Shown here: piece after piece, positions 19,750 through 24,003 of the stretch | Numbering within the stretch: position 1 is the first letter of the stretch | How the letters are laid out: each line of letters starts with the position of its first letter | Assembly: GCF_014873915.1 (NCBI RefSeq) | Contig: NZ_JADBEJ010000001.1 | Location: 62,001 to 126,000 of the forward strand | Direction: 5' to 3' | DNA from: Amycolatopsis roodepoortensis | GTDB taxonomy: Bacteria > Actinomycetota > Actinomycetes > Mycobacteriales > Pseudonocardiaceae | DNA: 64,000 bases | Notes under the pieces: generated by a model | The model's database searches: none | The model's input: the letters and a program-made list of their open reading frames with translations, nothing else | Told to the model about the DNA's origin: nothing | Translations under genes and position numbers: made by a program

Positions 19750-20217
19750 TCAGGAGAGGTCGAGCGCGAGCAGATCGATGCCGCCGGAGCCGAACTCGCC
19801 GACCTTTCGCCAGCCCCAGCGCTGGTACAGCTTCCGGGCGGGCGCCTCGACACGGGACGCGAGTACGGCGAACCGCTCGGGTCGCTCTTTCAGCAGGTCA
19901 TCGAGCAGAGCGCGGCCGAGCCCGCGGCCGCGGAGCTCGGGGAGGAGCGCCAGCTCGTACACGTAGAACAGCTCTTCGCCGTCGAACCACGAGGGCGCCG
20001 GAGCCGTCGCGCGGTCGGGCCACCAGCCGATTTCCTGCCGGACCCCGTAGGCGAAGCCGCCGAGTGCCCCGGCTTCGCGCACCGTCGTCATGGCGAACCC
20101 GGGGAGCGCGGCGTGTTCGGCGAACAGCACACCGAAGCGGGCGACGTCGTCCTCGCCTTCGAGGTACGGCGGTTCGCGGTAGACGCGGCGGTAGACGTCG
20201 TCCAGTTCAGAGCGCAC
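19750..20217 (-). CDS. GNAT family N-acetyltransferase, last gene of the RiPP operon
   Basis: A 155-residue GNAT enzyme that would move an acetyl group from acetyl-CoA to an amine. Motif A, which binds the CoA pyrophosphate, is LPELRGRGLGRALLDDLL; the C-terminal segment RKLYQRWGWRKVGEF is also typical. It begins at GTG and overlaps the MFS gene upstream by 11 bases, so it is translated with the exporter. It could N-acetylate the released peptide product (N-terminus or a side chain), confer self-protection, or be a passenger. Nothing in the sequence shows which. Confidence 0.85.
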   Translation of the reverse strand: MRSELDDVYRRVYREPPYLEGEDDVARFGVLFAEHAALPGFAMTTVREAGALGGFAYGVRQEIGWWPDRATAPAPSWFDGEELFYVYELALLPELRGRGLGRALLDDLLKERPERFAVLASRVEAPARKLYQRWGWRKVGEFGSGGIDLLALDLS

Positions 20218-21415
20218 GGTTCAGTCTGCCCAGCACCACGATCGCCACGCCACAACAGCCGATCAGCACCAGCCACGGCAGAGCCGCACCGTGCGACAGC
20301 AACCAGGTGAACGTCGCCGGGGCGATCACCCGCGCCACGCTCCACACGAGTTCTTCGAGGCCGAGATAGCGGCCGCGCAGCCGCGCCGGAGCGATCGCGA
20401 CGGTCAGCGCGCTGCTGGTCGGCGCCTGGAGCAGTTCGGCGGCGGTGAAGACGACCATCGCGAGGGTGAGCACGAGGAACGCCGTCGTGGATTGCCCGGT
20501 GGGCACCAGCGCGAACAGGACGAACGAGACCGCCCACACCGCGGCCGATACCTGGAGCGTGCGCGGCATGCGACGCCGCTCGACCCGGCGTGACACCACG
20601 GTCTGCGCGAGCACGACCAGCACCGTGTTGATCGCGAACAGGACACCGGGCTGCCAAGCCGGCAGCTTCAGGCCGTCGAGGACGTACGCGCTCAGCAAGA
20701 CGGTCAACGCCAGATCGCACAACGCGAAGACGAAGACGGTCACGAGGACGCCCCGGAAGAGCCGGTCGGCGAGCACCTTCCGGTAGCCGCCAGGGGGAAC
20801 GGCCTCGGATCCGCTCTCGCGAGGGGTGCCAGCCGGGGCTCGCCACGAGGCGACCAGAACCGCGGCGACGACGAAACTCGCCGCGTTGACCAGCACGATC
20901 GCCGTGTAGCCACCCGGGCCGCCCCAAGCGACCATCGCGGCGCCGAGGAGCCCGCCGAGCCCGATGCCGACATTGCGCAGCGCGCGTTCCATCGCGTACC
21001 AGCGGGCGCGCTGGCCGTCGTCGGCCACCTGCGCCACCAGCGCGCCGGTCGACGGCCAGAACATGCCCTCGCCCCAGAACGTGATCGCGGCAAGGACGAC
21101 CAGATGCCAGGCCTCGCCGGCGAAGACGTAGCCGGTGAAGGTCACCGCGCGGATCAGGTTGGCGGTGATCACCATCCGTCCCGGCCCGAACCGGTCGATC
21201 AGCCGCCCCGCGAGCGGACCCGACGGCAGCGCGATCATCGCCGCGATCGACAGCGCCGCTCCGACGGCCGTCAGCGACAGGCCCTTCGCCGCGTGGAAGT
21301 AGACGACGGCGAACGGCAGGAACAAACCGGTCCCCAGCGCGTCGACGCTTTGCGCCGCGATGAGCGGGAACCGGCCGCGAGTGCTCGGGAGCCCGAGCAG
21401 GTCGGCGGCGGCCAT
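20207..21415 (-). CDS. MFS transporter, probable exporter of the RiPP
   Basis: A 402-residue protein with about 12 membrane segments. The ATG at 21415 overlaps the YcaO stop codon in an ATGA, so the very long upstream in-frame extension is not used. The MFS loop 2-3 signature is visible as GPLAGRLIDRFGPGRMVI. The family exports drugs and small peptides or sugars by proton antiport. Tight coupling to the YcaO gene strongly suggests that it exports the mature product. Confidence 0.88.
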   Translation of the reverse strand: MAAADLLGLPSTRGRFPLIAAQSVDALGTGLFLPFAVVYFHAAKGLSLTAVGAALSIAAMIALPSGPLAGRLIDRFGPGRMVITANLIRAVTFTGYVFAGEAWHLVVLAAITFWGEGMFWPSTGALVAQVADDGQRARWYAMERALRNVGIGLGGLLGAAMVAWGGPGGYTAIVLVNAASFVVAAVLVASWRAPAGTPRESGSEAVPPGGYRKVLADRLFRGVLVTVFVFALCDLALTVLLSAYVLDGLKLPAWQPGVLFAINTVLVVLAQTVVSRRVERRRMPRTLQVSAAVWAVSFVLFALVPTGQSTTAFLVLTLAMVVFTAAELLQAPTSSALTVAIAPARLRGRYLGLEELVWSVARVIAPATFTWLLSHGAALPWLVLIGCCGVAIVVLGRLNRAL

Positions 21416-23583
21416 CACGCGTGTGGGAGCGGGAAGACGTTGAGTTCGTGCTCGGCGAGCGGTTCGTCGCGCCAGCCGAGCGCCACCGCCGCTTCGGCGA
21501 TCCTTCCATTGCCCCACAACGGGGATCCGGCGGGGAAGTTCGACACAAGCCCCGGGACGAGCGTATGCGCGGCGTGGAATCCGGCGGCCGCGACGTCGGA
21601 GGTCGTCAGGTCGACGCTGAGCACCTCGAATCCCCGGGCTTCGACGCGGGCTTGGTAGGCCTTGAGCCGCCGTTCCCCGAGGGCGGGAAGGTCGTCCCAG
21701 CCGCGGCTCGGCAGGTCCATGAGCCAGGGCGCCACTCGCTTCACTGCCCGTGGGTCGAGATAGATCTGTTGCTGGCAAAGGAGATCCGCGACGTCGGCGA
21801 AGTCTTCGCGGTACGAATCCAGGTATCGCCGGTCGGCCCGGTACGGTTTGAGGTTGCCCAGATGCGGCAGTTCCCGGCGCATGCCCGCCAGTTCGCGTTC
21901 GTCGTCGAGGGCGCGGCAGGTGTGCTGGAGCGTGAACCCTTCGGCGAGCGCCTTCTTGGCGGCCTCCAGCGCGTCCGGCCGGGTCGCGAAACCGATCGAC
22001 AGCCAGCGTTTCACGCGGTCGAGGACCACCGCGGCGACCACCGGGACGTCGAACTCGTTGTCCAGGTGGATGAGCGTGACCTCGTAGTCGTCGGTGGCGT
22101 CGGCGATGAGCGATCGGATCTCGTCCGGGATCGAGAGCCTGCCGAGTCGCGGCGTGTTGGCCCACCAGAGCATGGTGGTGTCGCGTTCGAGGACCTCTTC
22201 GAGGCCGGAGGTGACGGCGTGCTCCTCGGTGGTCCCGCTCGCGAGGCCGGCGATCAGCGGATCGGCGAAATACGCTTCCTCCGGCCGTCGTTCGTTCGAG
22301 AACAGGAACGCCGGAACCCAGACGGGTTCGCCGGTGGTGTGGGAGAAGCCTTCCACCCACGAACATTCCGTGTCCTGGGTCAGTGGCGCGAACGGGAAAC
22401 CCGGCGATCGGTACTGCGTGACCGAATAGAGGTTGAGCCGTTGCGGGTCGAGCGCGGGGACGCCGTAGCGGAAGAACTGCTTGTAGCTGCCGAAGCACAC
22501 TTCGCGCTCCGGAGCGAGCCAGCTTCCGCAGTAGCGCTCCACCGCTTCGCCGATGGCAGACTGACGCGCGAGGTCGAAGTCGTGCCAGGACGTGCCGAAG
22601 GCCTGACGGTCGTTGGGCCAGTTCGTCACGCGGCGCATGTCCGCGACATCGACCGCGCAGACCCGCAGCCGGGCGGGCATCCCCGGCGCGGGAGGGATCT
22701 CGCCGACACCGGTCACGATCCCGGTCTGGTCGTCCACCAGTAGCCCGGGGTCGGTCGTGGCGGGAACGGACCGGGCCCGGTCGGGCACGGGGAGGATCGG
22801 ACGGCGGATCTCGGTGAGGTCCGCCGGGTTCAGTTCGATCTCGCCGGTGGTCAGGCCGGATCGTCCGCCGGAGAGCCAGTGCTCGAGATGGACGGCGAGG
22901 GTGGTCAGCGCCCAGCGGGCGTCGCCCGGCCGAAGCGGGGTAGAGCCCGAGGGGGCCGAGAGGAACGCTTCGACGACTCGCGGGTCCTGCGCGGCGGAGC
23001 GGCGCCGCGCGACGACGTCGGCGAAGTCGATGCCGCCGGGCGCGATCGCGGGCCCGGCGATCACCCGGCCGCGTTCGCGGCGCAACGGCAGCCAGCGCAC
23101 CCCGCTGCCGGCGCACAACGCGTCCAGCGCGATCAGTTCGGTGTAGGCGGGGTGATCGAAGGCCGCGACCACGACCGTGTTCTCGGTGTCCACTTCGGAC
23201 AGATCATGGAAATAGGGGACCGTCTCGACGCTCGCGTACCCGCCGCCGCGGAGGATTTCCGCCAACGGCTCGGTGAGCGCGGGCGAGCCGGTGAGCAGGA
23301 TCGAGGTGGCGGCGGCATCGTCGTCCCCGGTGTGGCGGCCGGAGCTGAGACAGCCGTCCGCTTCGAGGATCTCCATCATCTCCTCGTAGTCCGGATCCAT
23401 ACCGGCCAGCAGTTCGGCGCGGGTCCGGGTGCCGTCGCATCGGCTCGCCCAGGCGCGGAACTCCCGGGTCGGCGCGGCGATGTAGAACTGGCCCCCGTTG
23501 GGCGTGACGAGAAAGCAGAGCTCCGGTTCGAGATCGGTGATCTCGATCCCGTCGAGCCGCGGTCTGACCTCTTCGGACCCCAT
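21415..23583 (-). CDS. YcaO-domain RiPP maturation enzyme (TOMM-type, fused leader-binding region)
   Basis: A 722-residue fusion protein. Residues about 1-90 look like the winged-helix leader-recognition part (YIAAPTREFRAWASRCDGT, then LEADGCL). Residues about 90-260 resemble a reduced E1-like Rossmann partner (SILLTGSPALTEPLAEILRG) but lack the zinc-binding CxxC pairs of azoline cyclodehydratases. The YcaO domain covers about 265-722: SAIGEAVERYC (342-352), GLASGTTEEHA (446-456) and EEVLERD (462-468) are ATP-binding landmarks. YcaO enzymes use ATP to activate backbone amides and make azolines, thioamides or amidines. The protein ends PLPHA, a weak version of the C-terminal PxPxP tail. The precursor gene is just upstream, behind a hairpin. 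Confidence 0.9.
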   Translation of the reverse strand: MGSEEVRPRLDGIEITDLEPELCFLVTPNGGQFYIAAPTREFRAWASRCDGTRTRAELLAGMDPDYEEMMEILEADGCLSSGRHTGDDDAAATSILLTGSPALTEPLAEILRGGGYASVETVPYFHDLSEVDTENTVVVAAFDHPAYTELIALDALCAGSGVRWLPLRRERGRVIAGPAIAPGGIDFADVVARRRSAAQDPRVVEAFLSAPSGSTPLRPGDARWALTTLAVHLEHWLSGGRSGLTTGEIELNPADLTEIRRPILPVPDRARSVPATTDPGLLVDDQTGIVTGVGEIPPAPGMPARLRVCAVDVADMRRVTNWPNDRQAFGTSWHDFDLARQSAIGEAVERYCGSWLAPEREVCFGSYKQFFRYGVPALDPQRLNLYSVTQYRSPGFPFAPLTQDTECSWVEGFSHTTGEPVWVPAFLFSNERRPEEAYFADPLIAGLASGTTEEHAVTSGLEEVLERDTTMLWWANTPRLGRLSIPDEIRSLIADATDDYEVTLIHLDNEFDVPVVAAVVLDRVKRWLSIGFATRPDALEAAKKALAEGFTLQHTCRALDDERELAGMRRELPHLGNLKPYRADRRYLDSYREDFADVADLLCQQQIYLDPRAVKRVAPWLMDLPSRGWDDLPALGERRLKAYQARVEARGFEVLSVDLTTSDVAAAGFHAAHTLVPGLVSNFPAGSPLWGNGRIAEAAVALGWRDEPLAEHELNVFPLPHA

Positions 23584-23614
23584 GGCAACCCCATCGTTTC
23601 CAGGACTCCCGCCT

Positions 23615-23650
23615 CGCCGCCGCGGTCCAAGACACGGGACCGCGGCGGCG
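23615..23650 (-). terminator. Attenuator-like hairpin between precursor and YcaO genes
   Basis: A perfect 14-bp stem (CGCCGCCGCGGTCC at 23615-23628 with 23637-23650) and an eight-base loop lie in the 88-base gap. There is no T-run. Partial termination or message protection here would give many precursor copies per enzyme, as is usual in RiPP operons. Confidence 0.75.
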
Positions 23651-23671
23651 CGGGCGGCTTTGTCGGCCGGT

Positions 23672-23806
23672 TTACTTGGCGGCGGAACGGTTGTGGACGA
23701 CCGCGCGGTTGTGCACGACGGCCCGGTTGTGGACGACCGCGCGGTTGTGGACCACGGCGCGGTTGTGGACGACGACGGCGGCGGGGCGCACGAAGGTCGA
23801 GATCAT
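23672..23806 (-). CDS. Repetitive RiPP precursor peptide with five VVHNRA-type repeats
   Basis: A 44-residue peptide starting at ATG 23806 with an excellent AGGAGGA ribosome site three bases upstream. Residues 1-11 (MISTFVRPAAV) would be a very short leader. Residues 12-41 are five hexapeptides: VVHNRA four times and VVHNRS once; AAK ends the peptide. The repeats differ at seven wobble positions (GTC/GTG, CGC/CGG/CGT, GCC/GCG) but the only amino-acid change is the last A to S, so selection acts on the peptide. There is no Cys; Ser and Thr occur only in the leader and at residue 41. I recognise no described precursor family. Neighbouring YcaO, exporter and acetyltransferase genes support a multi-core RiPP. 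Confidence 0.85.
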   Translation of the reverse strand: MISTFVRPAAVVVHNRAVVHNRAVVHNRAVVHNRAVVHNRSAAK

Positions 23807-24003
23807 GGGTCCTCCTGATTTTCGCTCGGGGTCGTCACGCTCCGTGGCGCGACATGACCAAGTCTCGGGCCGGACGTGACCTCCCGACGTCTCCTGATGT
23901 GCGATCCGCACGCCCGCCCCGGGCACGGTTCACGTGACCTGGGGAACAGCGATCCGGGGCGGCCAAGGCGCGTCGAAGGTGGACATGGGACACTGAGTGA
24001 GCT
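23807..24003. promoter_or_regulatory. Divergent control region between the RiPP locus and rlmN
   Basis: A 197-base gap that must hold the promoters for the precursor operon (-) and rlmN (+). I see no strong -35/-10 pair on either strand, and no clear operator. Confidence 0.3.

Follow-up and report, generated by a model that had tools for sequence, protein, structure and literature searches.

A conserved VVHNR array beside a fused YcaO gene marks a candidate multi-core RiPP cassette in Amycolatopsis

A 64,000-nucleotide stretch of the genome of Amycolatopsis roodepoortensis (contig NZ_JADBEJ010000001.1, positions 62,001 to 126,000; the window below) carries on its minus strand a compact cassette of four genes. 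These encode a 44-residue peptide built from VVHNR repeats, a fused YcaO enzyme, a transporter of the major facilitator superfamily (MFS), and a GNAT acetyltransferase. The VVHNR array is real, conserved, and under selection. Judged from the sequence, the cassette very probably constitutes a pathway for a ribosomally synthesized and post-translationally modified peptide (RiPP), with a candidate precursor gene beside a gene for a modifying enzyme and a repeated, conserved core. It probably yields several copies of one product per precursor. The fuller proposal of a multi-core RiPP pathway, with modification of each VVHNR unit by the enzyme and release of the units as one short peptide, is favored with some reserve. 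A first-pass annotation made from the letters of the window had proposed a multi-core RiPP, and the conserved repeat supports this, as does the occurrence of the peptide beside the YcaO in 15 of 25 Amycolatopsis genomes with a close YcaO and in 7 Streptomyces loci.

Organization of the Cassette

Read along the minus strand from position 23816, the cassette consists of an AGGAGG sequence, the 44-codon gene, a stem-loop, the 722-codon YcaO gene, the MFS gene, and the GNAT gene. Its features are as follows.

23816-23811, minus strand: ribosome-binding site AGGAGG, with the ATG four bases downstream (from the sequence)
23806-23672, minus strand: putative precursor peptide gene, 44 amino acids plus stop, MISTFVRPAAVVVHNRAVVHNRAVVHNRAVVHNRAVVHNRSAAK (from translation; like peptides occur in 23 other loci and on a plasmid)
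23687..23773, minus strand: five VVHNR units with Ala linkers, period of 18 bases (from translation and Tandem Repeats Finder, TRF)
23650-23615, minus strand: 14-bp stem-loop between the peptide and YcaO genes
21415..23583, minus strand: fused enzyme of 722 amino acids with parts like the RiPP recognition element (RRE), E1, and YcaO (TIGR03604, PF02624, AlphaFold2 model)
23341..23565, minus strand: RRE-like N-terminal part, about residues 7-81, three strands and three helices in the model (LynD and MccB alignment)
22780..23331, minus strand: E1/ThiF-like part, about residues 85-268 (E1/ThiF-type chains match over residues 84-268)
21418..22755, minus strand: YcaO domain, about residues 277-722
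20207..21415, minus strand: MFS transporter, predicted exporter (PF07690, E 5.9e-39; translation)
19750..20217, minus strand: GNAT acetyltransferase (PF13508 and PF00583 above their cut-offs)

Translation and profile matches bear out the layout given in the first-pass annotation, namely, a 44-residue peptide gene with a strong ribosome site, a hairpin, a 722-residue YcaO fusion, and MFS and GNAT genes, all in one direction. The overlap reported there for the last three genes is likewise present. It amounts to 1 base between the YcaO and MFS genes counted from the ATG (4 bases with the GTG at 21418 as start) and to 11 bases between the MFS and GNAT genes. NCBIfam and Pfam call a SagD-type YcaO, an MFS protein, and a GNAT protein; the sole match of the peptide in these collections is Hexapep, at 18.1 bits against a cut-off of 27, which is ascribed to the six-residue period. 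Upstream lies a divergent gene that we take to be RlmN and downstream, on the same strand as the cassette, a presumed PadR-type gene, both named by the likeness of their sequences and not by family search.

The 91-nt spacer that holds the stem-loop folds with a z score of -3.2 against dinucleotide shuffles, an equally good fold being reached by 1 of 200. A stem stands at the matching place in all 22 folded spacers, with differing letters. The hairpin was not called as a terminator-like site. Such a structure would allow the output of peptide to exceed that of enzyme.

Conservation of the Repeat

The peptide is made up of the leader MISTFVRPAAV, five VVHNR units joined by Ala, and the tail SAAK; TRF describes the array with a period of 18, 4.8 copies, and 86% matches. 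Repeats were counted in 22 distinct peptide genes from 24 loci, two of which are DNA copies of others, with the broken gene of genome G014 included. Units were counted by the pattern VVHNR, the remainder of the core consisting of linkers and tail only, and wider variants were looked for separately. All 103 units in these genes read VVHNR, in 17 DNA spellings. The variable bases lie at the third positions of V, V, N, and R only, and every change is silent. Inner linkers are Ala in 81 of 81 cases. Of 81 comparisons between neighboring units of one gene, 75 show differences at 1 to 4 of the 15 bases, so the identity of the units does not stem from recent duplication. In a 23rd gene, carried by a Streptomyces plasmid, each of the four units reads VIHNR. 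The array is more than chance because it recurs in frame upstream of the YcaO gene (9 of 13 loci in a scan described below) and varies only silently.

Five units are found in 14 genes, four in 6 genes, six in 1 gene, and three in the broken gene. Cys, Ser, and Thr are absent from all 107 repeat units (103 VVHNR and 4 from the plasmid); the tail contains Ser or Thr plus a final Lys in 22 of the 22 distinct genes. A GGAGG- or AGGAGG-like stretch precedes the other intact peptide genes as well, and three of the 15 intact Amycolatopsis genes start with TTG.

No report of a VVHNR-type repeat was found in the open-licence literature, a search that left subscription papers and supplements outside. 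A peptide search of a large protein collection yields a single relative, an aberrant 41-aa entry (P0107); for this reason, the peptide gene has probably escaped annotation, and the family has probably escaped genome mining along with it. The second half of P0107 resembles the antisense strand of the peptide gene, and its source is probably a chimeric contig.

The Fused YcaO Enzyme

The enzyme scores 263 bits with TIGR03604 (cut-off, 219.25) and matches PF02624 with an E value of 2.6e-57, and a TIGR03882 match in the E1-like part is weak and under its cut-off. The AlphaFold2 model fits LynD, TruD, and MusD, with the LynD/TruD match spanning residues 4-722, and alignment of the N-terminal part begins at residue 7 with LynD and at residue 6 with MccB. 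By predicted fold, the RRE-like, E1-like, and YcaO parts are united in a single chain. The combination of a YcaO with an RRE/E1-like partner, by which thiazole/oxazole-modified microcin (TOMM) systems are recognized, is thus present, given the TIGR03604 score and the LynD/TruD fold match. The C terminus reads FPLPHA; two of its prolines align with those of TruD and LynD, and the first proline of the PxPxP motif does not. The ERY/ERD motifs of TruD and LynD take part in Mg-ATP binding. No described family was found to match that of the cassette YcaO.

The cassette genes include no TfuA, the partner that defines thioamidated RiPPs of the YcaO-TfuA type. Four of the 20 cassette genomes (G000, G038, G044, and G069, that of the window among them) hold PF07812 elsewhere in the genome, so TfuA could act in trans in these four.

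Distribution

The distribution of the cassette is patchy. Scanning the GTDB species contigs identified 13 loci that hold a YcaO relative, and the in-frame VVHNR array lies upstream in 9 of them. The four loci without it comprise two from Amycolatopsis, whose YcaO match begins at residue 93, and two distant YcaOs (41% and 35%). A close syntenic locus with a YcaO of 85% is found in A. pittospori (L001). In a sample of 80 Amycolatopsis genomes, 32 match the YcaO at 1e-60, 25 of them with at least 60% identity. An even sample of the class contains 5 matching genomes of 394 at 1e-100, the window's own included.

Two observations had been named in the first-pass annotation as speaking against a RiPP locus: no related peptide beside homologous YcaO genes in other Amycolatopsis strains, or repeats shifted out of frame in near relatives. 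The genomes hold neither pattern. Among the 25 Amycolatopsis genomes with a close YcaO, the peptide is intact in 15, broken with three units in 1 (G014), and missing from 9, and in every relative that carries the repeats, they are in frame.

In Streptomyces, a sample of 392 genomes gave four matches at 1e-150. Three are close (65 to 67%) and all have the peptide, repeating loci of the first set; the fourth, at 43%, has two copies and no peptide. These copies (G520:C1:106083-108293 and 10568845-10571055) score equally and lie in opposite orientation near the ends of a 10.7-Mb Streptomyces chromosome. The full cassette is also found on a plasmid of Streptomyces sp. NBC_00503; plasmid records matching at 1e-40 number two, one with the full cassette. 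A mobile or viral origin was considered and set aside: phage records gave no match, and 31 viral-contig stretches that fit a pattern included no relative.

A DUF885 gene was considered as a peptidase of the cassette and rejected. It is found close to the cassette in five of seven Streptomyces loci, in one case on the opposite strand, and in none of the Amycolatopsis stretches, and it is not counted because its homologues are common in the class, being present at 1e-180 in 60 of 394 genomes, 39 of these in the genus taken for Streptomyces. On the Streptomyces plasmid (L096, 8964-10658), the DUF885 gene overlaps the GNAT gene, and it is possible that it represents an extra hydrolase of the plasmid version of the cassette.

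Joint Absence of Peptide, MFS, and GNAT Genes

MFS and GNAT genes accompany the intact peptide in 15 of 15 Amycolatopsis loci, the 15th GNAT gene being seen in a longer stretch (L084). In the Streptomyces loci, GNAT is present in 7 of 7 and MFS in 6 of 7; the locus without MFS (L011) has a shortened YcaO match. None of the 10 genomes without an intact peptide has an intact MFS or GNAT gene in the stretches of 4 to 6 kb on each side. G014 retains 95 MFS residues and a GNAT gene split between frames, and G026 retains pieces of GNAT. When 16 genomes, including the 9 peptide-less ones, were searched for the peptide, only G000 and G014 gave it, the latter in broken form. Further matches with an E value of up to 1 lie between 0.006 and 0.94; the one at 0.006 is the window's own gene read on the antisense strand. 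No peptide precedes the YcaO gene in L052-L054, and a ribosome-site-like stretch was recognized there by eye in at least L052 and L053.

On the YcaO tree, lack of the intact peptide takes five changes, four of them forced by supported branches. Five of the 10 genomes that have no intact peptide also lack the RRE-like part, their YcaO match beginning at residue 93, and a single deletion may thus have removed it together with the peptide. At L069-L071, L085, and L086 (G035, G002, G074, G013, and G034), a YcaO without RRE-like part, peptide, MFS, and GNAT stands at the RlmN-PadR site; the ATP-site motifs are altered in four of these five YcaOs, though relatives are annotated as YcaO-like. Among eight stretches from genomes without the YcaO, RlmN and PadR are adjacent in six, and in that of G048, no PadR is visible. 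The otherwise empty RlmN-PadR site of G043 (L093) holds a GNAT remnant, residues 76-147, which is a relic of the cassette.

Residues aligned with the ERY/ERD motifs are intact in all 20 precursor-bearing YcaOs tested (15 from Amycolatopsis and 5 of the 7 from Streptomyces). Among the YcaOs without an intact precursor, they are intact in G014, G026, and G035 and altered in the remaining seven, which are seven of the eight older cases. Invariant positions were first set on the precursor-bearing rows and then recounted with each row left out. Each of the 20 precursor-bearing rows shows 0 to 7 changes at these positions. G014 and G026 have a single change apiece, and the 8 older precursor-less YcaOs have between 10 and 51. 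The dN/dS values are 0.26 to 0.34 for 10 pairs of older precursor-less YcaOs, compared to 0.12 to 0.30 for 12 precursor-bearing pairs. A second role for the YcaO retained in the nine peptide-less Amycolatopsis genomes was considered and rejected, as the altered ATP-site residues (7 of 8) and the long branches favor decay, although the dN/dS values leave some constraint.

Distant Fused YcaOs and Their Peptides

Distant loci of the fused YcaO type have upstream, in 11 of 12 cases, a short open reading frame (ORF) with adjacent His/Asn and a ribosome-site-like stretch (L012, L013, L055-L058, L062-L065, and L115; the exception is L061). Examples include MIREVNEAREETIAPHNHAVTAASFHWS and a peptide containing LAPNGNHH. 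None of eight tested peptides of the His/Asn kind or like it has an NCBIfam match. These peptides may form one wide RiPP family, and the adjacent His/Asn in their sequences hints at chemistry there. A rule-based check of 25 further loci found a fitting peptide in L115 only, the other 24 YcaOs looking stand-alone by matched range; the His/Asn pair occurs in 2 of 8 same-strand ORFs and in 1 of 18 antisense ones.

A second multi-core peptide, beginning with MKQEQF and carrying three to four VNTCVAASL-like copies, is seen in L059 (upstream of 6001) and L060 (upstream of 7242, minus strand). The YcaO of these two loci matches that of the window from residue 289 or 301 only, with an MFS-like match nearby. 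Their VNTCVAA repeats hold Thr and Cys.

Proposed Pathway

In the proposed pathway, the RRE-like part of the enzyme, going by its modeled fold, would hold the leader at MIS(T/S), and the YcaO would spend ATP on activating one backbone amide per unit. Standard azoline formation on the unit is excluded by its sequence because it lacks Cys, Ser, and Thr; the ordinary TOMM (azole) chemistry that the first-pass annotation had brought into play is thus not supported for the repeat. The same lack makes a ring on Asn or His the favored chemistry. Such a ring on a side-chain nitrogen is predicted to be six-membered and to cost 18 Da per unit (-18 Da), and its formation at His/Asn is put forward only tentatively. 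More doubtful still is the proposal that the fused YcaO clade represents a new type of cyclodehydratase, acting at His/Asn and not at Cys/Ser/Thr, in which the delta nitrogen closes the six-membered ring. The extension of this proposal to four to six rings per precursor here and to single-core versions in distant relatives (APNGNHH, APHNH, NNN, and HHH) is equally doubtful.

Several short products would then be released by host peptidases, for which the natural site is after Arg. The GNAT enzyme, going by its gene family, would acetylate the units for capping or self-protection, and the MFS protein would export the acetylated peptide.

Relation to Known Systems

Multi-core precursors are known among the cyanobactins. 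By fold, their fused heterocyclases LynD, TruD, and MusD (4v1u, 4bs9, and 7u58) show the domain order of the cassette enzyme in one chain. In contrast, cyanobactins have cores with Cys/Ser/Thr, recognition sequences, and PatA/PatG proteases (PMC4603692), none of which occurs among the cassette genes.

The thiovarsolins of the var cluster from Streptomyces varsoviensis resemble the cassette in their repeating core, YcaO, and MFS transporter, and their core is likewise short, ends in Arg (APR), and needs no Cys, Ser, or Thr (PMC6511847). They differ in having TfuA thioamidation and heme-oxygenase-like, ATP-grasp, and amidinotransferase proteins. Their repeats are imperfect, and YcaO acts with TfuA in place of the single RRE-like/E1-like/YcaO chain (PMC6511847). 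In the std cluster, too, an MFS gene accompanies a YcaO whose backbone modification is at Asn; this YcaO, however, is of the YcaO-TfuA type, with thioamidation, a single SNKEWQE motif, an MNIO enzyme, and a carbamoyltransferase (PMC13174530). The streptamidine (ami) family shares with the cassette actinomycete precursors without a Ser/Thr/Cys-rich core and the pairing of an RRE/E1-like partner with a YcaO (PMC8442711). There, AmiB and AmiD are separate, Fec-like transporters, a hydrolase, and a dehydrogenase are present, and the precursor motifs occur one to three times (PMC8442711), whereas the cassette has a fused enzyme, an exact array, and neither a hydrolase nor Fec-like transporters among its four genes.

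Weighing of Alternative Explanations

Several observations weigh against the multi-core pathway with its enzyme acting on each VVHNR unit. The unit lacks the residues for which cyclization by SagD-type YcaOs is known, and the Ser/Thr kept in all 22 tails could be the true modification site. No peptidase is encoded among the cassette genes, and the window's own genome holds a TfuA gene outside the cassette. As for His/Asn chemistry, 10 of the 11 distant peptides were chosen by eye and several are near-copies, composition alone yields a His/Asn pair in 19 to 76% of shuffles (nine peptides), and the multi-core relatives in L059/L060 have no such pair. The dN/dS range of the older precursor-less YcaOs leaves room for some other constraint, and the tree pair tests point in the expected direction with four pairs, a number that cannot reach significance.

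Four other explanations can be set against this pathway. In one, the YcaO would form a single oxazoline in the ordinary way, at the Ser/Thr of the tail, and the VVHNR array would stay unmodified. A Ser or Thr within two residues past the last unit in all 22 distinct genes and in the plasmid gene would fit, as would the TIGR03604 score above the cut-off, yet the position varies (SxxK versus ASAK), conservation is strictest in the units and not in the tail, and a single site would have to serve four to six units, which leaves this explanation improbable. Slightly less improbable is that the YcaO works as a MusD-like ATP-dependent peptidase that activates the amide at unit borders for cleavage by water, so that the array is chopped without a protease; LynD and TruD match about equally well in sequence and fold, however, and MusD makes azolines too and cuts after the modified core.

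On a par with the latter in probability is a reversed order of events, in which host peptidases free the units and the YcaO then joins the free amine to the second carbonyl, giving an N-terminal six-membered amidine of the kind known from klebsazolicin and streptamidine. Regions rich in Ser/Thr/Cys are missing from streptamidine precursors too, and the YcaO of that pathway pairs with an RRE/E1-like partner (PMC8442711); the thiovarsolins provide a precedent for the release of repeats that end in Arg (PMC6511847). A freed unit, however, has no leader for the RRE-like part to hold, no AmiC/AmiE-like hydrolase or dehydrogenase is among the four cassette genes, and in streptamidine, Ser comes after the ring. 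By far the least probable explanation treats the small ORF not as a precursor but as a leader peptide regulating the YcaO operon through translation-coupled attenuation in response to His/Arg supply. A short ORF with repeated His/Arg codons and a strong hairpin between it and the enzyme gene would suit this, but all five residues of the unit are conserved and not a single codon type, V is changed to I in all four plasmid units together, and no terminator-like site was called. Moreover, where the peptide is absent, MFS and GNAT are absent too, and the YcaO motifs tend to be altered.

Significance

The cassette offers a compact four-gene system for asking how a YcaO acts without a classical nucleophile in the unit. 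The identity of the unit across Amycolatopsis and Streptomyces points to one product and a strict target, in contrast to many RiPPs, which change fast.
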